Below, piece by piece: positions 14,248-63,100 of a stretch of DNA of 64,000 bases. The DNA is from Prosthecobacter fusiformis (GTDB taxonomy: Bacteria > Verrucomicrobiota > Verrucomicrobiia > Verrucomicrobiales > Verrucomicrobiaceae), in NCBI RefSeq assembly GCF_004364345.1, contig NZ_SOCA01000007.1, positions 62,001-126,000 of the forward strand, in the 5' to 3' direction. Each line of letters opens with the position of its first letter. Within the stretch, counting starts at the first letter, position 1. The notes beneath the pieces are model-generated. The model saw only the letters and a list, made by a program, of their open reading frames with translations, did not search any database and was not told the DNA's origin. Made by a program: the position numbers and the translations under genes.

Positions 14248-17200
14248 TTATTTGGGACCAAATTTGGTGCTGCCCAGGACGCGGAAGCGGTAATACGCAT
14301 CCAGGGTGGCGGTTGGGGTGGTGGCGAAATCTGGCAGTGCAGGATCGGCCGGGTCCACGTAACGTTCCAGGATGGAGGAGCCACGGTTCTCGGCTATCAC
14401 GAGATCTTTGCCCTCCTCCCAGGTAGCCCAGGCAGCGGCATCGCTGCCACGACTGCGGGAGGCCTGTTGCAAGGCCTGCACCCGGTAATGTACGCGGTAG
14501 GTATTGGACTTGGTGGTGAGGCGAGGATACAGGGTAGCATAGGGATGCTCACGGGCATTGTCAGCGGTGAGTTTATGGGCCTGCCAAAAGGCGGGCATGT
14601 TATCCAGCGTTGTCTGTTCCGGCACCAGATACAGTTCGCAGATCTCACTGGCACTGCGGAAAATGTCACCCGCATCAAAGCGCTGTGTGAACTGTTTCAG
14701 GGTTTCATCGGCATTGATCAGGTAACGATAGTTGGTCGTGGTGGTGGAGCTTTTGTAAACATTGGCCGCTGTGGTGGGCACGGCAAAGACGCGCTCACTG
14801 CGCAGCAAGGCCCGCAGCCCCGTTGTCCGCTCGATGTAAGTGAAGGGGACGATCTGGTGGTTCATATTGATCTTTCCTGCGGTCGAGAGAGGCTCGCTGA
14901 TGGCATAAGGCTCCACCACGGGCATCCAGAACAGGTCTAACAAAAGATGATCTAAAGGAGCCTGGGCTCCAATATGGACACCACTCGTGGCATCCGGACG
15001 GAAGAGAAGGGTAGACCAGGGGACGCCAGCTTTGACCCGGTTCGGCAGGGAGCCAAACATCACGGGAGAAGGGATTTGCCGATTGGGAGAAAAGAAGGTG
15101 GGTCCGGTGGTTTCATGCGCTTGGTTCGCATCGAAATAAGGGACACCTGAGTTCTCCCGATAGCTGTTTCCTTCGTCAGGTTTGTTGATGTAAGCGCCAT
15201 CCATCACTGTAGCGACGCCCGTATCCCAGTCCCCTGTGGCCTCAGCCAGGGAGAGTGCGGCAACGGGGATGTCAGGACGTTTGGCACCGTTGTAAGCAGC
15301 GCCGGTCACGAAACTGCCCGCCTGATTATCGGCTCCTGGTGTGTAGTTGCTGCCGCCGCCTTCCTGGAGGTTGTTGGCGTTGAACTGGGAGGTGTTATCA
15401 TAATAACGATGCTTGATGAAGATGTCAGCAGGCGGATTGGTTTGTGCCGCCAGGAGACGATGATCTCCATGCCCCACGACCATGGTGCGAATGACGTCAC
15501 TGGGCGCGGCGGAGTTGTAGTGAATGACAGAGCCTGAACGGGTGGTGGTGCGTGTGCCGGGATCTGCCTGCGCACGGTGGATGCGGCCTGCCACGGCAGC
15601 AGGGACGGCCGTGGTGCCGGTGAAGGTCTGGAAGCCAGCGAGAGCTCCATCACGAGAGAAGCTCCACCAAAATTCACGCTTGGTATCCACGGATTGTGTG
15701 TCGGTGGTGGTGGCGTTTGCGGCTGTGGTGCTCATGACCAAACGTGGTACTGGGAAGGTGCCGGCGGCCAGCCTGACGGTGAGGGTCTGCACGGGCGTTT
15801 GTCCTGCCACGGGGTCCACCTGACCACTTGTGGGATTGGAGTCAGAAAAGATTTCAATGGTGATCTCACCGCCGTTGAACTGCATGGTGGAAGCATCGCC
15901 ATTGGGAACGGAGATTGTGATAGGCATGCTGACAAAGGGATAAGAATTGTTGGCACTGTGGCCTGAGTCTGCAGGCATCACGCCACGGGCTGGCAGGCGG
16001 CGGCTATTCAGCATAAAACGGAAACCTGCATTGCCACCCCACATGCGGCTGTGATAACCGCCGTTGGATTCGATGCGCAGGACACCTTCAGATGGGAAAC
16101 CCAGGGAAGTGCCATTGACGGTGAGATTTTGCAGACCACGAATGCGTATCTGCATGTCTGGCCGCAGGGAGCCCCAGCCTTGGCTGGGAGAGAAAGCTTC
16201 AAGCAAGAGCAGAGCCTCAATGCGGCGTTGATTCGACGTCAATTTCACTGCCGAGGTGCCACTGCCCAGAGTGCGGTTGGTGGGTTTGGTTTCCGTCTGG
16301 CCGATGTTGTCTGCGGGGACCACATTGCTATCCGGGACATTAAAATCCGCCGTGGTGATGAAGTGCATTCCCACCTCAGTCAAAGTGAAGAAGCGGCCAA
16401 AACCTTTGGTGTCGTTGATGCGGATGGGGGTCACCTGGCCATGTCCAGGCAAAGCGCCGGTTTTGCTGGAGCGTCCATTTGTGAACTGATTGCCGCTGGT
16501 GGGATAAACGAGAGGTTGAGGTTCGATGGTGTCATCAAACAAATTGGTGCTGCGGATGTAATCGAACATCTCTGTGAGGATCTGATCACGGTCCGTGCCA
16601 TACTTGGTGGAGAAGTTTCCGCCATAACCGGGAATAGGCCTTGAAGTGAGACTCTGCAAATAGGTGTAGAGTTCGACATTCCGGCCCGCAAAGTCGTCGG
16701 TGGCACTGTCCGCATTGATCCTGTCGAAGATGTAGTTTTTTCCCCCTACTTGGGAGCAAAAAGCAATGAGCTGGTCAAAAGGACTGCGGTGGGTGCTGGC
16801 CGTGTTTTGACTCACGGGCCAAGCCGCGATGCGAGGCTGGTTGAAGAGGTTTACTTCTGGCGCGCGACTGTGCGCTGTGACGAGGAAACGTGCTTGCTCC
16901 AATTGATCGGGTGTGATGACAGAACTTTCCCGCTCGTTGTTAAAGATGAGTTCATCTTCATAAGCATAGAGACGGTCTGCATCCAGAGGCACCGGCTCCA
17001 GTGCGAGGGTAGTCCCACCCAATGAGCCACCCAGACCGATACGAGAGCTTATTTGGGTGATGTCTCCACGGGTTAGGCTGGGGAAAGCCGCGCTGAGGTA
17101 AGTGGCCGCAGGGTGGCCTGGATAACGTTGATATTCACGCTGGGCAGGTTGGAAATCCGCCAGTGCCTGACGGTCAAACTGTGTGGTGACGCGCGGCAAG

Positions 17201-18039
17201 TCCCAATATGATCCGGCATCCATGTCCGAGGTGGAGGTCCAGTGATCCCCTGCGGCGGTATTGATGTTGATCTTGCTGGTTTCGTCATCGGTCCAATAAG
17301 CGACGCGGCCCACGATGGGATTGGTTTCGCTGGGTGCATCCGCAGCGCCAGCTTCCCAAACGACTTTGTCTCCCTGGCCATCGGCACCGGGGACGGATTG
17401 GGCGGGGGAGGTGAGGCGGCCATCCCGCAGCACATACAGCCAGCGCACGGGCATAGGGGCGGGATTGGCATCCGCAGGCGGGGTGCCGCCAGCACTGGCG
17501 GATGGAGGCGTGTTAACAGCGAGACCGGCGGGGGACTGGGTGGCAGGGCTGCCCGGGGCAGCAACCGGTGGTGGCTGAAAGATGGGATAACGAAGCTGGC
17601 CGTTCAGGGTGGTGACGGGACGGTTCAGATCCGTGTAGAGAGCATCGTTATCACCCCAGCCTGGCAGGACGTCATCGGCAGGATTGAAGGCTCCGTCTGC
17701 CACATTCCAGACCAGATTTTTGGCGGAGTATAACTTATAGTATCGCAGCGGGCTGCTGGCAGCATTTCCCTCCGTGGTGCCATAGGTGCGGATCATGCCG
17801 GGCTGGGATGCCCACGCGATTTCCTGCCCCTGAGAGGTGGCATCGCGGATCTGGCTGGTGACCAGGGCATTGACGGTGTCAATAAGTTCACGGCCACGGG
17901 TGCCGGCATCGGTGCGCTTGGCCACTTGCGTCTCTGTGCTGACGGTGGTGAGGAAGGCGATGATGAGGCCGGTGATCAATGCCAGGAAGGCAATGACCAT
18001 GACGAGGGCGACTCCGCGGCGGGGAGGGGCGGTTTTCAT
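14248..18039 (-). CDS. Verru_Chthon cassette protein A (TIGR02600), GspK-like
   Basis: A 1263-residue protein. The N-terminus is a short basic leader (MKTAPPRRG) and one hydrophobic helix (ALVMVIAFLALITGLIIAFL), like a type IV pilin-like leader but without the Glu at position 5 of the mature form. That lack is a hallmark of GspK/PilX-type minor pseudopilins at a pilus tip. The rest is a large exported domain with the DETSKININ segment also seen in GspK-like proteins. I chose the ATG at 18039 because it places the leader correctly; an ATG at 18102 would overlap the preceding gene by 16 bp. It is the last gene of the D-B-C-A operon. Confidence 0.85.
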   Translation of the reverse strand: MKTAPPRRGVALVMVIAFLALITGLIIAFLTTVSTETQVAKRTDAGTRGRELIDTVNALVTSQIRDATSQGQEIAWASQPGMIRTYGTTEGNAASSPLRYYKLYSAKNLVWNVADGAFNPADDVLPGWGDNDALYTDLNRPVTTLNGQLRYPIFQPPPVAAPGSPATQSPAGLAVNTPPSASAGGTPPADANPAPMPVRWLYVLRDGRLTSPAQSVPGADGQGDKVVWEAGAADAPSETNPIVGRVAYWTDDETSKININTAAGDHWTSTSDMDAGSYWDLPRVTTQFDRQALADFQPAQREYQRYPGHPAATYLSAAFPSLTRGDITQISSRIGLGGSLGGTTLALEPVPLDADRLYAYEDELIFNNERESSVITPDQLEQARFLVTAHSRAPEVNLFNQPRIAAWPVSQNTASTHRSPFDQLIAFCSQVGGKNYIFDRINADSATDDFAGRNVELYTYLQSLTSRPIPGYGGNFSTKYGTDRDQILTEMFDYIRSTNLFDDTIEPQPLVYPTSGNQFTNGRSSKTGALPGHGQVTPIRINDTKGFGRFFTLTEVGMHFITTADFNVPDSNVVPADNIGQTETKPTNRTLGSGTSAVKLTSNQRRIEALLLLEAFSPSQGWGSLRPDMQIRIRGLQNLTVNGTSLGFPSEGVLRIESNGGYHSRMWGGNAGFRFMLNSRRLPARGVMPADSGHSANNSYPFVSMPITISVPNGDASTMQFNGGEITIEIFSDSNPTSGQVDPVAGQTPVQTLTVRLAAGTFPVPRLVMSTTAANATTTDTQSVDTKREFWWSFSRDGALAGFQTFTGTTAVPAAVAGRIHRAQADPGTRTTTRSGSVIHYNSAAPSDVIRTMVVGHGDHRLLAAQTNPPADIFIKHRYYDNTSQFNANNLQEGGGSNYTPGADNQAGSFVTGAAYNGAKRPDIPVAALSLAEATGDWDTGVATVMDGAYINKPDEGNSYRENSGVPYFDANQAHETTGPTFFSPNRQIPSPVMFGSLPNRVKAGVPWSTLLFRPDATSGVHIGAQAPLDHLLLDLFWMPVVEPYAISEPLSTAGKINMNHQIVPFTYIERTTGLRALLRSERVFAVPTTAANVYKSSTTTTNYRYLINADETLKQFTQRFDAGDIFRSASEICELYLVPEQTTLDNMPAFWQAHKLTADNAREHPYATLYPRLTTKSNTYRVHYRVQALQQASRSRGSDAAAWATWEEGKDLVIAENRGSSILERYVDPADPALPDFATTPTATLDAYYRFRVLGSTKFGPK

Positions 18040-18086
18040 AAGCTGGTTGGGGGGAGAGGGAGAACTAAAGTGAATGTGTGGCCGGT

Positions 18087-19124
18087 TTACTCGCGGCTCC
18101 ATTTGGCGCTTTTCAGACTGACCTGGGTGGTAAAGACGCGGGCGTTCAGTTGTTTTGCCCGCAGGTTTTTCAACAGTGTTTCGAGGTCGGCTTTACGTAT
18201 TTCGGCATCGGCATTTTGGAAGAGATCTGCCAGACCGAGATCTGGCGGCTCGCTACTGCCGCCGATGCGCTCAGCGGAGGCGTCATCAATGGCCACCATG
18301 GTGACCTCCACGATGGGCGGAAGCTGGTGCTGGCTGCTGAGTTCCTTGCGCAAGCCTCCTTGCCCCTCGGTGAATGAGTCAAACTCATAGTTAGGCGCGA
18401 GGGCGCTGCCGGTCGGGTCCACTGAAGGGTCCCCAGCAGGGCCTTGGCCTGGCAGCTTAGGCAGGAAGGTGATGGCGATGATGTTGCGGGCGATGATGTG
18501 GGCATCCGGGTTGGCGGCGACATCCGGCGGCCAGCGCTCTGGCCCACCCAGGGGGACGAGGGATTCCGAGCGCTGTTTCAGCTCCATCAACCGGAATCCA
18601 TAGGTGGGGATCAGGGGCAGGAAGGACGGGCGCTCAGTGTCCTCGCCATACGTGATGTAATAGCCGGTGAGATTGAGCAGATGATGGAGCGCACCATGGG
18701 TGGGGATGCCAGTTTCGCCCAAAGGGGCGTAGAAGAACAGGGCATGTCCGGGCGTCTGGGCAGGGGGTTGCTGCAGGATGGCTGCGGCGGCTCCGCTGCG
18801 GAAGCGCAGTTCAGAATATCGGCCATAGCGGCCTGGCTCAAAGCTGGCCGCATTGGTCTGGTCACGCCGTGCGCCGGACTTGTCATAGTAATCCAGGTAA
18901 GTATTGAGCGTGGCCTGGGACAGATTGCGGGTGATGGTTTCAAAGGCATCACGGGCTTGCTGGAACTGGCTGACCTTCCCCCGGGTGCTGCGCCAGATGC
19001 TGGCCGTGCGGTCAGTCATGGTGGCAAAGATGAGCATGAGGATGGAGATCACAGCCATGCTAACCAGAAGTTCCACAAGGGAAAAACCTGGTCGGGCCGA
19101 TCTGGTTGGGAAACGGTTTTTCAT
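18087..19124 (-). CDS. Verru_Chthon cassette protein C (TIGR02599), GspJ-like pseudopilin
   Basis: A 345-residue protein with a class III signal (RPGFSLVELLVSM), cleaved after Gly by a prepilin peptidase with Glu at mature position 5, followed by one helix. The long C-terminal domain fits the Verru_Chthon C family. By size and order in the operon it corresponds to GspJ of type II secretion. Its ATG overlaps the TGA of gene B by four bases, so translation is coupled. Confidence 0.85.
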   Translation of the reverse strand: MKNRFPTRSARPGFSLVELLVSMAVISILMLIFATMTDRTASIWRSTRGKVSQFQQARDAFETITRNLSQATLNTYLDYYDKSGARRDQTNAASFEPGRYGRYSELRFRSGAAAAILQQPPAQTPGHALFFYAPLGETGIPTHGALHHLLNLTGYYITYGEDTERPSFLPLIPTYGFRLMELKQRSESLVPLGGPERWPPDVAANPDAHIIARNIIAITFLPKLPGQGPAGDPSVDPTGSALAPNYEFDSFTEGQGGLRKELSSQHQLPPIVEVTMVAIDDASAERIGGSSEPPDLGLADLFQNADAEIRKADLETLLKNLRAKQLNARVFTTQVSLKSAKWSRE

Positions 19125-19645
19125 AGGTTTTTAGCAACGTGCCCGGTAAAGGCGGTGAAGTTGAATCCGGAATCAGGCTGGATGGTTCCTTCCGGCGGAT
19201 CAGCGGGACCTCCAGGTGCAGTAGTGATGGGGATGTCCCGGTTTTCTGCATTGAGCGCTACCTGAACGATGACGGTGGCGAGGTTTGGCTGCAAGGTGCC
19301 GCCAGCAGTACCGGAGGGGATGCTGGTGGAGGGCTGGATGCGGATCAGTGCATGAAAGATGGCTCCGGTAGCATCAGGCAGCTCACTGCCTTCATCATCA
19401 AAGTAGCGCCAGGGCTTGGTGGCCGGAGGGGCGACCAGGACTGAATAATCCGTCTGGGCAGACTCATATAAAAGGCGCTGGCCGATCTGCGCGGTCACGC
19501 TGGTATTCATGGCCTCGCGAAAGGTGCTTAGGCCCGCAGGCAGCAGGCCGATCATGAGGGTGATGGCAGCCGCGGCAATGCCGATGGCTACCATCACCTC
19601 AACCAGGGAGAACCCCTGGCGGGCATGGGGGGGGAGGGATTTCAT
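19121..19645 (-). CDS. Verru_Chthon cassette protein B (TIGR02598), GspI-like pseudopilin
   Basis: A 174-residue protein with a class III signal (RQGFSLVEVMVAIGIAAAA) and a small exported domain. It is a minor-pseudopilin-like protein that corresponds in order and size to GspI/PilV. It lies 31 bp downstream of gene D and overlaps gene C by four bases. No strong Shine-Dalgarno sequence is seen before the ATG at 19645. Confidence 0.85.
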   Translation of the reverse strand: MKSLPPHARQGFSLVEVMVAIGIAAAAITLMIGLLPAGLSTFREAMNTSVTAQIGQRLLYESAQTDYSVLVAPPATKPWRYFDDEGSELPDATGAIFHALIRIQPSTSIPSGTAGGTLQPNLATVIVQVALNAENRDIPITTAPGGPADPPEGTIQPDSGFNFTAFTGHVAKNL

Positions 19646-19676
19646 GGGAGAATCGGGGTGGTTGAACCCGCTGAAA

Positions 19677-20414
19677 TTAGGGAGTGAAGGAGCGGACGGT
19701 GCCGCGTGTGGGCTTCACCTGGACGGTCACGTAGTTCGCTGGCGGGGACTGCCGGGCATTGCGTGAATGGACGGTGAGGAACCATTCCTGCTGGGCGTCC
19801 AGGTCGGTGCTGCCATCTGGAAGGAAGCGAACGCGATAGGCGGTGTAGTCTGTCCCGGCGTCTGGCAGGGGCTTTTGTTCATCGCCTTCTTTCCAGTCGG
19901 TTTTGATCCGGGCATCCGTGATCAAAGTGGAGAGGGTGGCATCTTCGCTAATTTTTACTGCAGAGGGCAGGCGGCGGACTTCGCGTACGGGCCGGGCCTC
20001 CGCATTGTCCTGGTCAAAGATGAATGCCTGCACGGCACTTACGCCAGGGGATTCACCGAAAGAATTCGGGGCGGTGGATTTATAAAAGCGTACCTCAACG
20101 ACGCGGTCCCGCACCTGAGCGGTGTGGCGGGCCAGTTTCAGCTCATCGGAAACCATTTCACCGGCTTGACTGATCTGGTTGGCTTCCACCACGTCATTCG
20201 CCACGTTGGCGGTGAGGGACATAAGGACAGCTACCAGCGTGAGTACGGCCAGGATTTCGATGAGGGTGAAGCCCTGTCTGCGGCGGCGCGCCGGGGGGCC
20301 AGCAGGGAAGGTGAGGCCTGGATGTCGCTTCGCATCATGAGGTGCAAGTGACGGAATGGTTTCACGGAGAATTGGATTATTCACCGCCCGGCTTGTGTCA
20401 TGAGTTGTGCTCAT
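19677..20414 (-). CDS. Verru_Chthon cassette protein D (TIGR02596), GspH-like pseudopilin
   Basis: First gene of the cassette, 245 residues from the ATG at 20414. An unusually long basic leader (about 48 residues ending RRRRQG) precedes the class III signal FTLIEILAVLTLVAVL. The exported domain begins with the GspH-like DELKLARHTAQ helix region. Upstream in-frame codons extend the frame to 20498, but no start there is better. The spacing to the divergent leuS gene is about 270 bp, and promoters for both are expected there. Confidence 0.8.
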   Translation of the reverse strand: MSTTHDTSRAVNNPILRETIPSLAPHDAKRHPGLTFPAGPPARRRRQGFTLIEILAVLTLVAVLMSLTANVANDVVEANQISQAGEMVSDELKLARHTAQVRDRVVEVRFYKSTAPNSFGESPGVSAVQAFIFDQDNAEARPVREVRRLPSAVKISEDATLSTLITDARIKTDWKEGDEQKPLPDAGTDYTAYRVRFLPDGSTDLDAQQEWFLTVHSRNARQSPPANYVTVQVKPTRGTVRSFTP

Positions 20415-20684
20415 GATATACTTTGTAAATACCTGGCCTGATTGGTTCAATATAAAAATGATTTTTGCTGGTGTTATTATGACTTTGTGCAATATCAAAG
20501 AAAGATTTGGCTAAAGTCGGCGGAGGAAACCCTTTAGGGGGTAGATCTTGACCTGTGAAAGTAGGCCTTTTTGCTTTTGACAATCCGCAGGCAGGTGGGT
20601 GTTGAAATCTTTGCGCTGGACGTAGGTGACACTGCAACTCCTCGGTTGCGAAATGCCCCTGGTGCGCCTTCTTGCGCGCCCCGT
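20415..20684. promoter_or_regulatory. Divergent intergenic region, cassette D / leuS
   Basis: A 270-bp spacer between two divergent genes. The half next to cassette gene D is AT-rich (about 20415-20515), as expected for a promoter, but no single -35/-10 pair stands out. I see no leader peptide with a run of leucine codons and no clear attenuator before leuS. Confidence 0.35.
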
Positions 20685-23285
20685 ATGAGCAGCGAGCAGC
20701 GTAAAGCATTTCCTTTTTCCGAATTTGAGCCGAAGTGGCAGTCCGAGTGGGACGCCAAGCAGGCTTTCCGTACGCCGAACCCCGGCGATGCGGATTTTGA
20801 TGCCTCCAAGCCGAAGTTTTATGTGCTCGATATGTTCCCGTATCCGAGCGGTGCAGGGCTGCATGTGGGGCACCCGGAAGGGTATACGGCCACGGACATT
20901 ATTGGCCGCTATAAGAAGATGACAGGTCACAACGTCCTGCACCCGATGGGGTGGGATGCTTTTGGCCTGCCCGCTGAGCAGTATGCTATCAAGACCGGCC
21001 AGCATCCGCGTGTGACGACGGAGGCCAATATTGACGGATTCCGTGGCCAGCTTAAGCGCCTGGGTTTCGCCTATGACTGGAGCCGTGAGGTGAACACCAC
21101 GGACCCGGGTTATTTCAAATGGACGCAGTGGATCTTCATGAAGCTGTATAACAGCTATGTGAATGCAGAGGGCAAGGCAGCTCCTATCAGCGAGCTGGAA
21201 GCGCAGGGACTGAGCCGCGCGGAGATTGACGCCCGCCGCCTGGCCTATGTGAGCGAGGCCCCGGTGAACTGGTGCCCGGAGCTGGGCACCGTGCTGGCCA
21301 ATGAAGAGGTCATTGATGGCAAGAGCGAGGTTGGAGGATTTCCGGTGGAGCGCCGTCCGCTGCGCCAGTGGATGCTGCGCATCACGAGCTTTGCCCAGCG
21401 TCTGATTGATGAACTGGATGGCCTGGACTGGCCGGAGAGCATCCGCCTGCTGCAGCGGAACTGGATTGGGCGCAGTGAAGGGGCGGAGGTGAAGTTCTCC
21501 CTGGTCGGCAATGACCAGACCGTCACTGTATTTACGACGCGGCCGGACACGCTGTTCGGAGCAACTTACATGGTCATTGCTCCCGAGCATCCGCTTGTGG
21601 AGGTGATCACCACACCGGAACAAAAAGAGGCCGTGGCTGCATATCAAAAAGCCGTCGGCTCTAAGTCCGACTTGGAGCGCACGGAGCTGGCCAAGGACAA
21701 GACTGGCGTCTTCACGGGTGGTTTTGCCATCAATCCCGTCAATGACGAGAAGATCCCTGTGTGGATCGCCGACTATGTCATGATGGGTTACGGAACTGGG
21801 GCCATCATGGCCGTGCCCGCGCATGATGAACGGGATTGGGAGTTTGCTACCAAGTTCCATTTACCCATCCGTGAGGTGGTGGCGGCTGCGCCGAAGCTGG
21901 AAAGTGAAGGAGGTTCTGTTTGTGAGATGGAACCCGCAAGTTGCTTCGCCAGTGCAGGTTTCGCAGTGAATTCTGGTTTTCTGAATGGCATGGCGACACC
22001 CGAAGCCAAAAAGAAAATGGCCGCCTGGCTGGAAGAAAAAGGCCTGGGCAAGGCGATGGTGAACTTCAAGCTGCGCGACTGGCTTTTCAGCCGTCAGCGG
22101 TATTGGGGGGAGCCGTTCCCGATTGTGTGGGAAAACGGCGAGCACCGTTCCATCCCGGAGACGGAGCTGCCACTGCTGCCGCCGACGCTGGAAGACTTCA
22201 AACCGAGCGGCACGCCTGAGCCACCGCTGTCCAAGGCGACCGACTGGGTGAAGTATTCTGAAACCGCCACGCGCGAGCTGAACACGATGCCGCAGTGGGC
22301 AGGCTCGTGCTGGTACTACCTGCGCTATTGCGATGCGCAGAATAACCAACGATTCGTCAGCGAAGAGGCGGAGAAATACTGGATGGGCGGTGGCAAGCCC
22401 GGCGGTGTGGATCTTTACGTCGGCGGCACCGAGCACGCTGTGCTGCACCTGCTGTATGCTCGCTTTTGGCACAAGGTGTTGTTTGATCTGGGCTACGTGA
22501 GCACGCCGGAGCCGTTCCAGCGTCTGGTGAACCAGGGCCTCATCATGGGGGAGGACGGCCAGAAGATGTCCAAGAGCCGTGGCAACGTGGTGAACCCGGA
22601 TGACGTGGTGAAGGAATACGGTGCCGATGCGCTGCGCCTGTATGAGATGTTCATGGGCCCGCTGGAGCAGGTGAAACCGTGGAGCATGAAAGGTGTGGAA
22701 GGCGTGTATCGCTTCCTGGCCCGCGTGTGGCGTCTGGTCATGGAGCAGAATGCCGAGGGCGAGTGGAGCATCTCCGCCGCGCTCCAGGATGTGCCTGCGG
22801 AAAAGGTAGTGACCAAGGTCCTGCATGAGACCATCAAAAAGTGCGGCGAGGACATCGAGAAGCTGAGCTTCAACACCGCAATCGCGCAAATGATGGTGTG
22901 CACGAATGCCTTTACCGCTGCGGCCACAAAGCCGGTGAAAGAGATCGTCACCTTCCTGAAAGTGCTCGGACCGTTTGCCCCGCATCTGGCGGAGGAACTG
23001 AATGCCCGCATTGCAACCAAGTTTGCCGATGTTTCCGTGAAGGGTCTGCTCAGTGATGAAACGTGGCCAGCCTATGATCCTGCCGCCCTCATTGAAGACG
23101 AAGTGGAAATTGTCTTCCAGGTGAATGGCAAGCTGCGTGACAAGGCGCGCGTGGCCATCCAAGCCACCAAGGAGGAGATCGAAAAGATCGCCCTCGCCAG
23201 CCCCCGCGTGCAGGAGTTCATGGAAGGCAAGCCCATCAAAAAGCTCATCGTCGTTCCCGGGAAACTGGTGAACATCGTCGTCTGA
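20685..23285 (+). CDS. leuS: Leucyl-tRNA synthetase
   Basis: An 866-residue class I synthetase that charges tRNA-Leu in the cytoplasm. The HIGH motif is HVGH at residues 60-63 and the KMSKS loop lies near 627-631. The CP1 editing domain sits between them (about 230-430), and an anticodon-binding and C-terminal domain ends the protein. Length is typical for bacterial LeuRS. I chose the ATG at 20685 because the family begins with this [11 protein letters not shown]-type segment; upstream in-frame codons to 20571 look non-coding. A clear terminator follows at 23364-23410. Confidence 0.97.
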
Positions 23286-23363
23286 TCCATGGAGCACACG
23301 CGTCCTCGCGTGCCGTTTTTCGCGTCTCGCGGAAAACCGTTCTCAGACCTCGTCAAAACATTC

Positions 23364-33210: not shown

Positions 33211-34002
33211 ATGCCTGCCGTCCTCGCTCTTTTCGCCCATCCAGATGACATCGAATTCGTGGCTGCGGGCACCATGCTGCTGCTTCAGGAGCGCGGCTGG
33301 GACCTGCACTACATGAATATGTGCACGGGCAATGGGGGCTCTGTGCAGATGGACGGAGCCACCACCGCTGCCACCCGCCTGACGGAAGGGCAGGCGGCTG
33401 CGCGCATCCTGGGGGCGACGTTTTATCCGCCCATCGCGGATGATCTGGAACTGACCTACAGTGTGCCTTTGCTGCGAAAGGTGGCTGCTGTCGTCCGGGA
33501 AGCAAAGCCTAGCATTGTGCTCACCCATTCACCGGCGGACTACATGGAGGATCATCAGAATGCCCAGCGGCTGGCCTGTACGGCCGCCTTTGCGCATCCC
33601 ATCCAGAATTTTGTCACAGACCCGCAGCGGGATTCCTTTCTGCATGATGTCACCGTTTACCACGCCATGCCGCATGGCCTGTGTGACCCGTTGCGCAAGC
33701 GCATCCATGCAGGTTCTTTCGTGAATACCACGCGGGTCCACGCGAAAAAGCGGGAGGCGCTGGCAGCGCATGTCAGCCAGAAAGATTGGCTGGATGTGAC
33801 GCAGGGCATGGACTCCTACCTCGTCAGCATGGATGAATCCTCCCGCAAAGTGGGGTCTCTTTCACAGGGATTTACCTTTGCCGAAGGCTGGCGCAGGCAT
33901 CTGCACCTGGGCTTCAGCGCGACCGCTATCGATCCTCTCCAGGATGCTCTGGGCGCAGACTGCCAGATTAACGAGGCCTATGAAGCCTGGCTGAAGGAAT
34001 AG
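33211..34002 (+). CDS. PIG-L/LmbE family deacetylase
   Basis: A 263-residue zinc-dependent deacetylase family protein. The AHPDD metal motif is at residues 9-13 and a second conserved segment, THSPADYMEDH, supplies further ligands. Such enzymes remove acetyl groups from N-acetylglucosamine-type sugars or related molecules; the substrate here is unknown. The ATG at 33211 gives the normal family start. It has no clear operon partner. Confidence 0.88.
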   Translation: MPAVLALFAHPDDIEFVAAGTMLLLQERGWDLHYMNMCTGNGGSVQMDGATTAATRLTEGQAAARILGATFYPPIADDLELTYSVPLLRKVAAVVREAKPSIVLTHSPADYMEDHQNAQRLACTAAFAHPIQNFVTDPQRDSFLHDVTVYHAMPHGLCDPLRKRIHAGSFVNTTRVHAKKREALAAHVSQKDWLDVTQGMDSYLVSMDESSRKVGSLSQGFTFAEGWRRHLHLGFSATAIDPLQDALGADCQINEAYEAWLKE

Positions 34003-34327: not shown

Positions 34328-34588
34328 GTGTCAATACCGGTGGAAGTGACAGAGATGCCGGGAGAGCAGTCATCCGTAATAGGACGTGTGCGCAGGTCTG
34401 TGGCTACCAGAGGTGAAATTCTGGAATTAATTCATTGTTATCATGAAGAGAACCCGGCTGGCAATCCCCGAAATCCATTGAGTGAAATGAGCCTCTCTTT
34501 TGTGCTGTTCGAGCACCCCGGATGGTTAAGGAGGATAAAGGATTATTTAGGTGGGAATTCGTTGGATGGTGATGAGAAACGTGTGTAA
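34328..34588 (+). CDS. Possible small hypothetical protein
   Basis: An 86-residue frame from a GTG at 34328; an ATG at 34355 is also possible. It includes a helical segment (RGEILELIHCYHEE) and a hydrophobic-charged tail. There is no recognised domain and no convincing ribosome-binding site. It ends just before the large Ig-fusion gene. It may simply be an open frame in the upstream region of that gene. Confidence 0.25.
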   Translation: MSIPVEVTEMPGEQSSVIGRVRRSVATRGEILELIHCYHEENPAGNPRNPLSEMSLSFVLFEHPGWLRRIKDYLGGNSLDGDEKRV

Positions 34589-34616
34589 ATACACCATCGA
34601 TTTCTTACGTGCTCAC

Positions 34617-37600
34617 ATGGATTTTAAACTGTCTCTCCGCCACTGTGCTTCACCTCTACTGCTAGCATGTGTTTGGGGCGGTTTTCTACCCGCGCAGGAT
34701 GTTCCTCGGTTGTCCCTCAGCCAGGTTGGTCTTCATTTCATTTGTACGGCGGATGGCCAGCCGGATATGTATAGCTGGCGTCATCCGGTAAAGGATGTGA
34801 GACCTGGCTCAGCACCAGAAGATTATTTGATCCCCGAAATTGCGCTAGAAGATTTGGATAGTTCCCTCAATGTCAGTGGGGGGAGGACAGCATTGAGTGT
34901 GGAGCCTTATAATGGTCAAGGATTTGCCATTGCGCATGACGTGTTCAGTGGATTTTATGGGCAAGAGGAAGAAGCTCGCCTGACCAATGGAGAGGCCGTT
35001 CATTGGACGGAACCAGGGAAAGGCGAGAATACCTTCAAAAAGAGGTATTATTCCAATTTTCCTCCCTTGTCCGGATCACCCGTAATGTATGGGATTGTAT
35101 CCGATTTCTCAGGTGTGGTTGGGGACTCTCAGTATGGTCGGACCCGGCGAGTGCACCCAGGGTATAATCCATACAACTGGAACTACACACTGGATTATAA
35201 TGTCCCCTTGACGGTTAATCAGAAGCGCATACAAGCGATGCTGTATCTGCAATTGCATCATGCGATAACAACGGATGCCGATAAGAATTTTGATTTCACC
35301 TTTGTAATTTCAGGTGCGGATCTGGGCTCAGTTCGTGTTGATGGGCAAGCCATTTTTGCCAAGGCATCCGATTATGTTTTTCAAAGTCAAAAGGCACTTT
35401 TTGAAACAGCTGATCAAGGAACTCTGGGTGGATTTGCGGACTCTCAAAAAATAGCCCGTGGACGGTACGCTCAGGGGCGGCCTCCGATGCCGGCTGATTC
35501 AGGTTATATAACCAATCTAAACTCGAGTACTTCTTTGTTACTGAATTTAAACCTATCATCGCTCTACTGGACGATGAATAGAGATGAGATTCTTGATTTT
35601 AGTTCCGAGCTCATCACGCTGGCGGTTTATTCGGGAAATCTTTCACTGAGTTCATTATCAACGGTACAACCAGTTCAGATCATTTGTTTTAAACTGCCTG
35701 ATGGACGAGCGCCGGCACCGGATTTGGTGACGGTGGGCACATACCCTGTACACGGCTTTAACGCAAACGGGCTGCCTTATCATAAGCCGTGCCTACAGGC
35801 TCCTCATTGGTGGAGCTTTAACTCTGACGGAGCAATTGGGCGTCCCTATGGTTCTCAATCAAATACAGCTCTGCGTGGTCGCTATGCAAACTTTTCACAG
35901 TGGAATTGGGACAAATTTTCAGTAAATTCCTCGGATCCCTTTGCTCCACAAGATGGTTACAGACAACGAGTCCCTGGTGGTAATTCCCTTATCTATGGCT
36001 ATGATGAGAGGCTGTATCCAGATGTGCGGAAAGTGCCTGTAGCGGAACTCATAGCTGATCCTTTAAAGCGCATCGAATACCAGGCCCCCCGTTACAATAT
36101 GCCGCTGCATTTTGGCACGGATACGCTGCGCACATTATCTTACGTGCATGATTTAACCCCGAAATTGTATGTGGAAGATTCGGATTTTACGCCGCATCCC
36201 TCATACAATGATGTCGGAGTGCATTTGGCATATGCATCAGCGTATGATCCTCCTCAAATCATTACCCCCCCTCAGGCCCAAAGTCTCCAAATCAAAGGGC
36301 CGGTGTCTATGTCAGTCGAGGTTTCAAGCTCGACCCCGGTAACCTATCAGTGGCGATTTAATGAGGACCCCATCCCGAATGCGAATGGTCCAAATTTCGA
36401 AATGGAAATGGCGGAAAAAGCTCAGGAGGGTTCCTATGATGTAGTTGTGACCAATTGGAAGGAGAGTCTCATTTCTGAGTCGGTGGAGCTGATTGTACAC
36501 GATCCGGTGATTGTTACTGACCCGGTCTCTAAATCGGTAGCCGTAGGCGGGGCAGTCACGTTTTCAGTATCTGCCGAAGGGGCAGACTTGACCTATCAGT
36601 GGCGCCGTAATCATCTGGCTATCCCGAATGCTGTTTCAAAGAATCTGGAGCTGTCTCGGTTGAAGTTTACTGACGAAGGACTTTATGACGTTATCGTGAC
36701 GGGCAGGCATGGTCAGGTTATTTCGCAGCCTGCTAACCTGACGGTTTTCGCACCTCTGGCCATTGTGCAACAGCCAGTGGGAGGCCGTTTGCGATTGGAG
36801 CGCAGCATGACCTTGAAGGTGAATGCCGTGGGAGAGATGCCCATCCGTTATCAATGGTGGAGGGGTAGTGAAATGATCGCAGGTGCAGAGACTGCCGAGC
36901 TGCTGGTGACAGCTACGGATGAGGATGACGCTGCAGGATTTTACAAAGTGGTGGTGACAAGCCCTCAAGGTAGCGTCACATCTAAAACTGCCGAGGTGGT
37001 AGGAGTGGACTATCCGCCAGTCATTACCTTGCATCCTGAAGATCAGATTGTGGGGGTGGGTCTGGCGGCCAGCTTCAGCGTGGAGGCGGAAGGTGAGTCC
37101 CTTCGCTATCAGTGGCGGCGAAACGGGGTTAATATAAGTCGGGCCAATGCTGCATCTTATGTGATCCCCCAGGTTAAAAAGACCCACGTTGGCATTTATG
37201 ATTGTGTGATCAGTAACAATGAAGGCAACACTCTCTCCCGGTCTGCTGAGCTTTCTTTGCCTGTAAGTCTTTCTTTCACCCGCCTGCCTGAGGATCAATT
37301 CGTCACAGAGGGAGAAAATGCAATTTTTAAAGCCTTGGTGGTCAGTGAAGGCGAAAAGGTGACCTATCAATGGTCTTTTAATGGAAAGGTCATTTTAGGA
37401 GCCATTTACCCAGAGCTAACGGTACATGATACCAGTCCTGAGCTAGCGGGCGTTTATAGCGTCGAGGCTTCAAAGGGGGGAGAAAAAGTCACTGCGTCGG
37501 CTCTGCTAAAAGTGCGCGAGCCAGGCATGCTTGTTTATAAAATCACAGGCACTGGTCAGACGGTCGTCGGCAGCACAAATACGCGGGTAACGGTGACGGG

Positions 37601-38075
37601 TTACTTGCTGCTGGAGCAGATGCCCCAGGGGTTAAATGGGGCTCTCATTATAGTTACCAAGGATGGTCGGTACAGCCGCTACCATGTGCAGCGCCTGGAT
37701 CATCTGCGCTTGGATTCTACGGGCCCTTCCTTAAAGACTCAGAGCGTCATCAGCAGCGTTGCAGAAGGTACGGAGGAATCTCCTTTTCGTTCTTTGCTAT
37801 GGCTGCAAGGTGCCGATAGCCTGATTGTTCTGTCGCCCACAGTGAAGACCCTGGGACCTAAAACTCTTTCCGGCACCGCTAACCAAATGAGCATGCTGAG
37901 GGTTGATGGGCCGTCAAAAACCACTCTAGAAACACTGAGCCTAAAAGCTGCCCTAGACATCACAAGCAGCGCCGTGGCGCGCCAAAACTCCGAATCTTTG
38001 GACGGCACCCTAGAACGACTGGTTGTGGACTTACAGGTAAAAGGATATTTGGAGATGGCTGAAGAGGAACCTTGA
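34617..38075 (+). CDS. Secreted protein: Verru_Chthon cassette A-like region plus five Ig-like domains
   Basis: A 1152-residue protein. It starts with a conventional signal peptide (about 1-27, ending FLPAQ) rather than a pilin leader. Residues 32 to about 535 follow the exported part of cassette protein A in the same motif order: VGLHFICTAD, LTVNQKRIQAM, MPADSGY, WWSFNSDGA and DTLRTL match VGMHFITTAD, LTSNQRRIEAL, MPADSGH, WWSFSRDGA and DVIRTM. Five Ig-like repeats (about 541-968) follow, each with a YQWRRN- or YQWSFN-like core strand, then a C-terminal region of about 185 residues. I infer a surface or secreted adhesive protein. I chose the ATG at 34617. The gene is visibly more AT-rich than its neighbours. 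Confidence 0.7.
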   Translation: MDFKLSLRHCASPLLLACVWGGFLPAQDVPRLSLSQVGLHFICTADGQPDMYSWRHPVKDVRPGSAPEDYLIPEIALEDLDSSLNVSGGRTALSVEPYNGQGFAIAHDVFSGFYGQEEEARLTNGEAVHWTEPGKGENTFKKRYYSNFPPLSGSPVMYGIVSDFSGVVGDSQYGRTRRVHPGYNPYNWNYTLDYNVPLTVNQKRIQAMLYLQLHHAITTDADKNFDFTFVISGADLGSVRVDGQAIFAKASDYVFQSQKALFETADQGTLGGFADSQKIARGRYAQGRPPMPADSGYITNLNSSTSLLLNLNLSSLYWTMNRDEILDFSSELITLAVYSGNLSLSSLSTVQPVQIICFKLPDGRAPAPDLVTVGTYPVHGFNANGLPYHKPCLQAPHWWSFNSDGAIGRPYGSQSNTALRGRYANFSQWNWDKFSVNSSDPFAPQDGYRQRVPGGNSLIYGYDERLYPDVRKVPVAELIADPLKRIEYQAPRYNMPLHFGTDTLRTLSYVHDLTPKLYVEDSDFTPHPSYNDVGVHLAYASAYDPPQIITPPQAQSLQIKGPVSMSVEVSSSTPVTYQWRFNEDPIPNANGPNFEMEMAEKAQEGSYDVVVTNWKESLISESVELIVHDPVIVTDPVSKSVAVGGAVTFSVSAEGADLTYQWRRNHLAIPNAVSKNLELSRLKFTDEGLYDVIVTGRHGQVISQPANLTVFAPLAIVQQPVGGRLRLERSMTLKVNAVGEMPIRYQWWRGSEMIAGAETAELLVTATDEDDAAGFYKVVVTSPQGSVTSKTAEVVGVDYPPVITLHPEDQIVGVGLAASFSVEAEGESLRYQWRRNGVNISRANAASYVIPQVKKTHVGIYDCVISNNEGNTLSRSAELSLPVSLSFTRLPEDQFVTEGENAIFKALVVSEGEKVTYQWSFNGKVILGAIYPELTVHDTSPELAGVYSVEASKGGEKVTASALLKVREPGMLVYKITGTGQTVVGSTNTRVTVTGYLLLEQMPQGLNGALIIVTKDGRYSRYHVQRLDHLRLDSTGPSLKTQSVISSVAEGTEESPFRSLLWLQGADSLIVLSPTVKTLGPKTLSGTANQMSMLRVDGPSKTTLETLSLKAALDITSSAVARQNSESLDGTLERLVVDLQVKGYLEMAEEEP

Positions 38076-38281: not shown

Positions 38282-38779
38282 TTATTCGGCCGAGTCGTCG
38301 GTATCAGCGGCGCCTGCGTCGGATTCAGCAAGGACGGTCAGCTTCAAGAAGCAGTTCACGTCAGCATGCAGCTTGACAGGGATTTCGAAGGTGCCGGTGC
38401 TCTTGATCGGCTTGTCGAGCTGGATCTGGTGACGGTCGAGCTCCACCTTGGCGGCGCTGTCGGCCACAGCCTTGGCGATGTCCATGTTGGTGATGGAACC
38501 GAAGGCCTTGCCGCCCTGACCAGTCTGAAGGGTCAGTTTGAGCTTCAGTTTCTTCAGCTTGGAGGCGATTTTCTCAGCCTCCTGCAGTTCCTTGGCCTCA
38601 CGCTCAGCGCGGATGGCTTTCAGATGATTGAGGTTGCGAAGATTGCCAGCGCTGGCGTCATAAGCCTTGCCCTGAGGGACGAGGAAATTGCGTGCAAAAC
38701 CACGCTTCACATGCACGACATCAGCTTCAGCGCCGAGGCCTTGAATCTTCTCTTTGAGTATTACTTGAACGTTTGCCAT
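38282..38779 (-). CDS. rplI: 50S ribosomal protein L9
   Basis: A 165-residue bL9. The N-terminal domain (ANVQVILKEKIQGLG with the RGFARNFLVPQG motif) binds 23S rRNA, a long charged helix links it to the C-terminal domain (KAFGSITNMDIAKAV), and an acidic tail is added at the end. The ATG at 38779 has a good ribosome-binding site (GGGAGG nine bases upstream). It is a single gene here, not in the usual rpsF-rpsR-rplI operon, with its own terminator. Confidence 0.95.
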   Translation of the reverse strand: MANVQVILKEKIQGLGAEADVVHVKRGFARNFLVPQGKAYDASAGNLRNLNHLKAIRAEREAKELQEAEKIASKLKKLKLKLTLQTGQGGKAFGSITNMDIAKAVADSAAKVELDRHQIQLDKPIKSTGTFEIPVKLHADVNCFLKLTVLAESDAGAADTDDSAE

Positions 38780-38854
38780 AAAGTGAGCCCTCCCAGGGAA
38801 AGGGGGGCGATTGTACACGCTGAGACTCCCCTGTCAAACGTTGAGACTAGTTTT

Positions 38855-60123: not shown

Positions 60124-63100
60124 TCAGGCGGGATTCAGAAACCGTCCTGTCGCGCTGGACGTCACTTTAGCCACCTCCTCCGGTGTACCTTCGGCCACGA
60201 TATGCCCTCCTTCATTGCCCCCGCCCGGCCCCAGGTCCACCACCCAGTCCGCACAGCGGATCACATCCAGATGATGCTCGATTACGATGACCGTATTCCC
60301 TGCATCGCGCAGGCGGAAAAGCACCTGCAATAGCGTTTGGATATCCGCAAAGTGCAGGCCCGTCGTCGGCTCATCTAAAACATAAAGCGTATTCCCCGTA
60401 GCCTTGCGCGCCAGTTCTGCGGAAAGTTTGATCCGCTGCGCCTCCCCACCGGAAAGGGTATTCCCCGCCTGGCCCAGCCGCACATATCCCAGGCCGCATT
60501 CCTCCAGCGTGCGCAGCTTTTCAGCAATCGCACTCGCCTTGCCAAAAAAGCGTGAGGCCTCACTCACCGTCATCTCCAGAACCTCGGCGATGTTTCGTCC
60601 CTTGAAGGTGATCTCCAGCGTCTCCGCATTGTAGCGCTTTCCATGGCAGTGGTCGCAGGTCACATAGACATCCGCCAGGAAGTGCATGTCGATTTTGATC
60701 TGGCCATCCCCCTGGCATTTTTCGCAGCGCCCACCGGCCACATTGAAGCTGAAACGACCTGCCTCATAACCGCGTACACGTGCCAGCGGCAGGTTGGAAT
60801 AAAGCTCACGGATCGGCCCAAACGCAGCCGTATAAGTCGCAGGATTGCTGCGCGGACTCCGTCCAATGGGTGATTGATCGATCACCACCACCTTGTCAAA
60901 GGCTTCGATTCCTGAAATGCTGCCATGCCTGCCCGGCTCATCCTTTGCATGATAAAAATGCCGCTGCAGCGCCCGCATCAGGATACGGTTGATCAAGGTG
61001 GACTTGCCACTGCCGGAAGGTCCCGTCACCGCAGTCAGACACCCCACTGGAAACGAGGCGGTGACATGCTTGAGGTTATGCTCAATAGCATCGTGGATCG
61101 TCAGCCAGGTAGGCAGCGGATGCTCCGCCCGCAGGGCGAAGTGCTCTCCCAGTACCGTTCTCTTTTTCCCCGGCTGAGACTGGGCGCTGCGCTCCATGGC
61201 GGCTGCGCTCACGGTCGCAGCCGAAGGCGGTTTGCCGATAGGAGCCACCCGTCCTGAGGGCGGTGTAATGCGGAGCTGCTCGCTCAAATAAGCCCCCGTC
61301 AGACTCTCCTTCATCGCCATTACCTCTTCGGGGGTGCCCTGGGCGATCAACTGCCCTCCATGGACGCCTGCCGCAGGCCCCATCTCGATCACATGATCCG
61401 CCGCCCGCATCATTGCCTCATCATGTTCCACCACCAGCACCGTGTTTCCCAAATCCCGCAGGCGCAGCAGCGTGCCGATGAGCCTTTCCGTATCCGCCGG
61501 GTGCAGGCCGATGCTTGGCTCATCCAGCACATAGAGGACACCCGCCAGCCCCGCACCGATCTGTGTCGCCAAGCGGATACGCTGCATCTCCCCACCGGAA
61601 AGGGTACCACTCTCCCGGTTCAGCGCCAGATACCCCAGCCCCACCTGCTCCAGGAAATCCAGCCTCTTTAAAATCTCCTTCTGCAATTCCTCCACATAGC
61701 TACGCTGATGCTCCGTGAGGCTGAGATTCCTCACCCAGATGAGAGCATCCCGGATGGGAAGCGAGCAGAGATAATGGATGTTTAATAATGAGGGGGAAAT
61801 AGAGACGGGAGTGCTCAGTGCTCCGTGTTCAGTGCTCAGTGGGGGAATGGGCGGGGCATTGTCCTTGGTCCTTGTTTTCCCCCTGGCCTTTTTCGGTTCC
61901 GAAGTCTGAGCACTGATCACTGCGCACTGAGCACTAATTTCTTCTCTCGCCCCAATCTCCGACGCCAGCACCACCGCCAGGCTCTCTTTCCGCAGTCTTT
62001 TCCCCTCACAGGCCGGGCAGGGCAGGGGATTCATATAGCGGGTCAATTGTGCCCGCAGGGTGTCACTTTCAGCATTTTCATAAAGTCGCCGCGCCTCATT
62101 CAAAAGGCCCTCATAAGGTTTCGCCAGGCTGCGTTTATTCGCTCCGGTAGCCCAGCCTGTCGGGATGGCCTTGTCCCCGGTGCCATGGAAAAGAGCCTCT
62201 TTAAATCCCTGCGGCAATCCTCGGAATGGAGCATCCACCGCCACCCCAAAATGCTTCGCTAAAGCCTCCACTCCGCGTTGATGGATCAGCTTCAGTTTCG
62301 GATTGCGAGACCACCAAGTTTTCACCGCACCATCTTGGATGGACACTTCTCCATCCGGAACCAGCAGCCCTGGATCGGGTGCCATCAGGGTGCCCACGCC
62401 TTCACAGGTCGGGCAGGCTCCCAGGTGCGTGTTGAATGAAAAATGCTGAGGCGTCAGTTTTTCGATCACATAGCCGGTGCGTGGATTTGCATAGGCCGTG
62501 GTGAAACTCAGCAGGTCCGGTTTTGCCTCAGCGGCACCGCTCACTAAAAACTGTACTTCGCTCTCATTCCACCGCAACGCTGCCTCGATGGATTCCATCA
62601 GCCGCGCTTTCACTCCTTCTCGGATCACCAGCCGGTCCACCACGATCTCTACCCGATGTTCCTCCCTCAGGCTTGGCTTCAGCTCCTCCTCCAGTTCCAC
62701 GATCTCTCCATCCAGCCGCACCCTCACAAACCCCTGACGGCGCAGTTTTTCGAATAGTGCCCTTAGGGCCGCTCCATCCGCCGGGGGCTGTGGAGACAGA
62801 ACCACCACGCGCGTTCCTTCTCCCAGAGAAAGCAGCCGCTCCCCGATCTCCGCCGGCGTGTTTTTGATCAGCCTCTCCCCCGTTTCCGGGTCATGCGGCT
62901 GTCCGGCGATGGCATAGAGTACACGCAGGTAATCATAGATTTCCGTCACCGTAGCGATGGTGCTGCGCGGGTTTGGTGCACTGTGCACCTGCTCGATCGC
63001 CACCGCTGGAGAAAGGCCTTCGATGAAATCCACATCCGGCTTTTCCAGTTGATCCAAAAACTGCCGCGCATAGGCCGAAAGGCTCTGCACATACCTCCGC

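Follow-up and report, generated by a model that had tools for sequence, protein, structure and literature searches.

The 64,000-nucleotide stretch of the Prosthecobacter fusiformis genome analysed here (the window: positions 62,001 to 126,000 of contig NZ_SOCA01000007.1) encodes, at 34617-38075 on the forward strand, an exported protein whose head corresponds to the middle domain of Verru_Chthon cassette protein A (TIGR02600), here detached from the pseudopilin and joined to five Ig-like domains and a C-terminal domain. As judged by sequence comparison, the cassette A domain thus exists outside the pseudopilin. The initial annotation had proposed as much, and the proposal is borne out by a fusion that is statistically significant, recurs in several species and carries a head modelled as a self-contained fold.

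The open reading frame spans 34551-38075 (+) and, from the ATG at 34617, yields a protein of 1152 aa. It begins with a Sec type I signal peptide (34617-34697, residues 1 to ~27, MDFKLSLRHCASPLLLACVWGGFLPAQ) that was read from the sequence and is devoid of a prepilin motif; by inspection, a leader of this ordinary type is seen in 7/7 homologues, in agreement with the earlier description of a normal signal peptide in place of a pilin-type leader. A lipoprotein reading of the lipobox-like LLAC in this leader was dropped, as no homologue keeps it. The head follows (34698-36236, residues 28-540, ~510 residues, supported by hhalign, AF2 and a phylogenetic tree), and then the five Ig-like domains (36252-37544), which were recognised both by Pfam (Ig_3, E 9.7e-35, with further I-set and Ig_2 matches) and by a purpose-built HMM that places all five within residues 546-976. 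Their bounds (residues 546-636, 629-721, 714-808, 801-891 and 885-976) are HMM envelopes, hence the slight overlaps between neighbours. The five repeats had been counted correctly, but the C-terminal domain that follows (37518-38072, residues 968-1152, ~185 aa, bearing no Pfam name) had been overlooked. No tandem DNA repeats were found in the Ig region of the gene, and a pilin module is absent from the N-terminus of the protein. The gene is flanked by a PIG-L family gene (33211-34002, +) and by an oppositely oriented gene (38282-38818); no cassette genes adjoin it, and none of the seven known loci of this fusion has an adjacent cassette A.

The window encodes a Verru_Chthon cassette protein A of its own (14251-18039, minus strand, 1263 aa, short class, TIGR02600 E 5e-296), which serves here as a comparison protein and not as an operon partner; its middle domain lies at 15376-16389 (-), corresponding to residues ~551-888 of P0002 (~340 residues; hhalign coordinates 488-825 of the 64-1263 fragment). 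A single pairwise BLASTP comparison of this protein with the fusion returns E 2e-7 over residues 196-408, and the motif LSLSQVGLHFICTAD / FTLTEVGMHFITTAD is also common to the two. TIGR02600 itself matches the full fusion protein with E 1e-3 (17 bits) and its head with 19.6 bits, and each of the seven head-family members is matched as well (best E 2.3e-9), the free-head proteins scoring 17-20 bits, below the curated cut-off of 332.3 bits. The homology is brought out by profile-profile alignment of the seven heads with 39 cassette A proteins (hhalign), a comparison proposed in the initial annotation, which gives a probability of 100% and E 2.9e-83 over 386 columns. The alignment covers columns 669-1061 of the 1515 columns of the cassette A profile only. 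The likeness is therefore real, but it concerns the middle third of cassette A and not, as had been thought, its whole exported part. Nor is the cassette A of the window the best reference: within the same genome, the head is closest to a long cassette A encoded on a different contig (G000:C3), to which it is 42% identical over 500 residues (E 3e-99). A further match in that genome (G000:C8:190069) was discarded as due to chance, its frame being interrupted by stops. Motifs and their order agree between the head and the cassette A middle domain, whereas the rest of cassette A is missing from the fusion: all seven free-head proteins lack the prepilin-type leader and N-terminal helix of TIGR02600 proteins as well as the conserved parts that flank the middle domain, namely the GspK-like front part (550-730 aa in cassette A) and the back part (375-560 aa), and the fusion has no neighbouring B, C and D genes.

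Structure prediction of both proteins, likewise suggested at the outset, points the same way. The AF2 model of the head is one compact domain (pLDDT 91.9, pTM 0.93) with elements E6-19, E175-191, E200-204, E226-230, E243-247, H249-253, E291-294, E298-302, E306-312 and E327-331; the order of strands and helix runs parallel to that in the window cassette A (E489-502, E541-554, E566-571, E588-593, E606-608, H610-614, E644-647, E655-659, E661-669 and E688-694), the pairing having been read from the two lists. By its model, the head is likely an independent fold that would fold alone. Foldseek finds no PDB structure that significantly resembles it (best E 6e-3, probability 0.06), and sequence searches of the PDB with the head and cassette A profiles gave no matches. 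Conservation within the domain is uneven. A set of 16 long cassette-A heads has 90 nearly invariant positions, of which 59 are identical in 7/7 free heads, the overall identity of free heads to the long-class consensus being 47%; another 13 are altered in all seven free heads, both domain edges included (E36, F213, F214, S217, P225, P268, F276, H305, the P/G/D/R edge near 509-512, and H539). This is the pattern expected if core contacts to the pseudopilin had been lost and the domain's own site retained, although mere divergence of a single clade could also account for the uniformly altered positions.

As to the role of the domain in its original setting, the genes of the cassette show weak secondary matches to minor pseudopilins, with A resembling GspK (in the leader region), B GspI, C GspJ and D GspH. 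The GspK HMM matches cassette A at 3e-5 over residues 8-79 only, and profile comparison with the GspK of the genus is weak (E 2e-5, probability 77%) and mostly confined to the N-terminal helix; the AF2 model of the window cassette A is of moderate quality (pLDDT 70.7), and its Foldseek comparison with GspK (3ci0_K) is not significant (E 0.55). Glu5 of ordinary pilins is missing from cassette A in 54/54 readable leaders, as it is from the genus's own GspK; GspK and PilX, both proposed tip subunits, are likewise reported to be without Glu5 (PMC7541494), and GspK sits on top of the pseudopilus tip complex (PMC6211770). By its leader, its missing Glu5 and this weak profile match, cassette A looks like a tip subunit of the GspK/PilX type. 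Of the three parts of cassette A, the middle domain has the widest range of lengths (254-618 aa) and the lowest mean pairwise identity (32%, compared with 42% and 46% for the other two thirds), a variability that would be expected of an exposed contact module. A separate peculiarity of the leaders is the replacement of Gly by Ala before the predicted prepilin cleavage site (RRKA-MALVMV), which is seen in 16 of the 54 readable leaders overall and in many of those of the 1634-1728 aa class of cassette A (L109-L127).

The long class of cassette A (1740-1860 aa) has a characteristic neighbour. At 14/14 loci with sequence in that position, two of them near-copies of each other, a giant protein with Ig-like domains is encoded directly upstream of the long cassette A, on the same strand and with gaps of 15-143 nt (L020, L022-L029, L032 and L089-L092); each of the three giants scanned has a PATR match. 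Several other cassette classes have PATR giants upstream, and the class of L033 has a PAS histidine kinase there. Downstream of the long cassettes of most species (L032, L089-L092, L026 and others) lie genes that we recognised by eye, rather than by HMM, and take to be guaB (IMP dehydrogenase) and guaA (GMP synthase), presumably marking a fixed chromosomal site. With its large exported protein and pilin-like genes, the long-cassette gene set resembles the Myxococcus clusters of PilY1 and minor pilins (PMC7541494). The cassette of the window (14248-20498, -) is of the short class, with the order D-B-C-A, a middle domain of ~340 aa and no adjacent giant, and the same arrangement recurs at L149 and L150. 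Two ORFs beside it (20511-21860 and 21861-23297, -) were rejected as operon partners, for they match no family and run antisense to a 904-codon frame. Verru_Chthon cassettes occur in 62/68 genomes of the family, with up to dozens of candidates per genome; G012, G064, G065 and G067 have, at first look, 22-41 candidate cassette A loci each, which indicates large expansions.

The protein had been regarded as an orphan. A survey for fusions of an A-like domain with Ig-like domains, again an idea of the initial annotation, instead recovered seven full-length proteins in five species of one genus among the 68 genomes of the family: that of the window, one in a Prosthecobacter MAG (L018), two in tandem in L085, and one each in L084, L086 and L087. 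All seven frames are intact (1139-1188 codons), and signal peptide, five Ig-like domains and C-terminal domain are present in 7/7. End-to-end identity among the seven is 39-58%; the window copy is 40-47% identical to the others, while GspE of their species is ~88-91% identical. A sixth species (G017) has no full-length fusion and keeps two remnants only, a frame of 165 aa in which the first ~70 residues run into the final ~90 (L088, 9547-10044) and one of 268 aa made up of the last Ig-like and C-terminal domains (L099). Decay in this species shows that the gene can be dispensed with. Both the tandem pair, which belongs to G013, and the 165-aa remnant lie between surE and a complete operon of gspE, F, G, H-like, I/J-like and K. 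Beyond these fusions and remnants, no free head was found in 387 genomes of the order; short frames at G065:C196, G108:C49 and G034:C64 proved to be cassette A genes that are split or cut by contig ends. Every species with a free head also has a long cassette A, and the pair of long cassette A and giant is widespread among species of the genus that have no free head. A plasmid search returned partial matches only, which in the listed rows are limited to the Ig-like and C-terminal domains.

A maximum-likelihood tree built from 62 middle domains unites the seven heads in a single clade (100/100), which falls inside the clade of long cassette A, beside the long cassette A of the same species group; the free head thus derives from the long subclass of TIGR02600 proteins. 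The remainder of the protein has other relatives. Over the Ig-like and C-terminal domains, identity amounts to 35-38% with proteins that have FGE-sulfatase, NHL-propeller, beta-helix-like and other heads, compared with mostly 25-30% identity between the Ig part and the Ig domains of the giants beside cassette A; an origin of the Ig repeats in the giant was therefore rejected in favour of the C-terminal-domain chassis proteins. These undescribed Ig-repeat secreted proteins (L094, L095, L097 and L098 among them) resemble the fusion in having 4-5 Ig-like domains followed by the same C-terminal domain of ~180 residues, and differ from it in bearing FGE-sulfatase, NHL propeller, beta-helix-like, kelch-like or LamG-like heads where the fusion has one from cassette A. 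The C-terminal domain is in itself an undescribed module with interchangeable heads (window 37518-38072, L094, L095, L096, L097, L098, L075, L076 and L079), present in 15/289 genomes of the order, every one of them in the same family. From the nested position of the head clade and the identities of the chassis it follows that a single event put the cassette-A domain onto an existing chassis; at the level of sequence, a single origin of the head inside cassette A and a chassis common to other heads are established.

These observations are best accommodated as follows. The middle domain of a long-class cassette A was copied a single time, in an ancestor shared by a subset of the genus; separated from the pseudopilin, it was placed on a pre-existing chassis made up of five Ig-like domains and a conserved C-terminal domain. 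In cassette A the middle domain would be a contact module at the tip of the pseudopilus, and the free head may keep that binding activity. The fusion would be shown at the cell surface, or released, on its Ig stalk, with the C-terminal domain as the putative holding element, and might act as a pilus-independent adhesin or adaptor that meets the ligand of cassette A; this putative common ligand could lie outside the cell, as a surface or a glycan, or could be the giant Ig protein whose gene adjoins long cassette A. Selection can keep the head on its own, most likely in the role of a binding module. To the explanation as a whole, a modular exported protein using a freed tip-binding module as surface adhesin or adaptor, we give an even chance. 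A more specific version is put forward tentatively, as it is considerably less probable: the middle domain would be an undescribed fold serving as specificity module of a Verrucomicrobia pseudopilus system, the giant Ig/PATR protein the cargo or substrate of the tip, and the fusion a means of pilus-independent display.

Among the other explanations, the one that survives best takes the fusion for a soluble protein cooperating with the secretion or pilus machinery, either docked on a pseudopilus tip complex, in the way that PilY1 docks on minor pilins and CofJ on CofB, or handled by such a tip as a substrate of the type II secretion system (T2SS). The tandem pair of G013 (L085:383-14200, G013:C6) immediately precedes, and is collinear with, gspE-gspF-gspG-...-gspK, with gaps of ~85-90 nt, and the remnant of G017 (L088:9547-16348, G017:C4) has the same place before its T2SS operon; the presence of long cassette A in all free-head species is also in keeping with such a partnership, and PilY1 and CofJ set a precedent, being soluble and presented by pilins at the tip (PMC7541494, PMC8179133). 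However, the T2SS linkage counts as one event in two close species, because GspE of G013 and G017 is 95% identical and 14 other T2SS loci of the genus are without it. Moreover, a copy of the tip subunit's own domain is an unexpected shape for a binding partner of that subunit, and no PilY1 domain is recognised in the fusion by Pfam. We consider this reading possible but unlikely. More doubtful still is a role as adaptor or decoy towards the giant Ig protein, in which the free head, instead of the tip subunit, would occupy the giant or anchor it at the cell surface. The giant is indeed immediately upstream in every one of the 14 long cassettes, and the free head stems from exactly the long class and keeps most of its fixed residues; yet binding between the giant and the middle domain of cassette A is no more than guessed from gene order, and the pair of long cassette A and giant is common in the genus where no free head exists.

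The head could also be an enzyme or a specific carbohydrate-binding domain, with the fusion degrading or binding an extracellular polymer. Its strongly conserved polar and aromatic motifs (ICTADGQPDMYSWR, SGGRTAL, YSN.PPL, HPGY..NWN and QAP.WW) would suit such a role, as would the FGE-sulfatase and other heads on the same chassis, and the weak, non-significant Foldseek matches of the head are mostly glycoside hydrolases with beta-sandwich domains. The domain, however, sits in a pseudopilin in nearly all cases, shows no significant fold or family match and has no catalytic signature that we could recognise, which makes an enzymatic or lectin-like head improbable. Least of all do we credit a functionless by-product of duplication in decay, as the remnant-only species and the fast divergence relative to GspE might suggest, or a superficial resemblance: seven intact frames in five species, complete in every domain and with 59 fixed positions kept, speak against decay, and the profile match (E 3e-83) already refutes chance resemblance.

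The preferred reading, a freed tip-binding module on a surface-displayed protein, has counterparts in known systems. In modular type IV pilins, such as PilB and PilC of Streptococcus sanguinis, CofB and GspK (PMC8179133), a module is placed at the filament tip, and cassette A is comparable to a very large modular pilin; in the fusion, by contrast, the module sits apart from any pilin, on a non-pilin Ig protein. PilY1 and CofJ of type IV pili (PMC7541494, PMC8179133) are, like the fusion, soluble, exported and modular, and the fusion may likewise work with minor pilins; it shares with the PilY1 family a type I signal peptide and solubility, both assessed by inspection only. In contrast to PilY1 and CofJ, it has the tip subunit's own domain, its genes are mostly unlinked to pilins, and a Pfam search for the C-terminal beta-propeller domain of PilY1 gave no match. 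In the open-access literature searched we found no paper using the Verru_Chthon cassette name or the TIGRFAM numbers, nor any description of a pilin module moved onto an Ig protein, which does not prove that none exists elsewhere.

The excised, soluble version marks where the middle domain of cassette A starts and ends, and it tells residues that serve the domain itself apart from those retained for the sake of the pseudopilin. It also offers a tractable bait for finding what Verru_Chthon pseudopili contact or secrete; if the middle domain is indeed a specificity module, one protein would allow the ligand of the whole cassette system to be found by a simple pull-down. More broadly, the fusion extends the idea of the modular pilin, in that modules can leave a pilin as well as join one.
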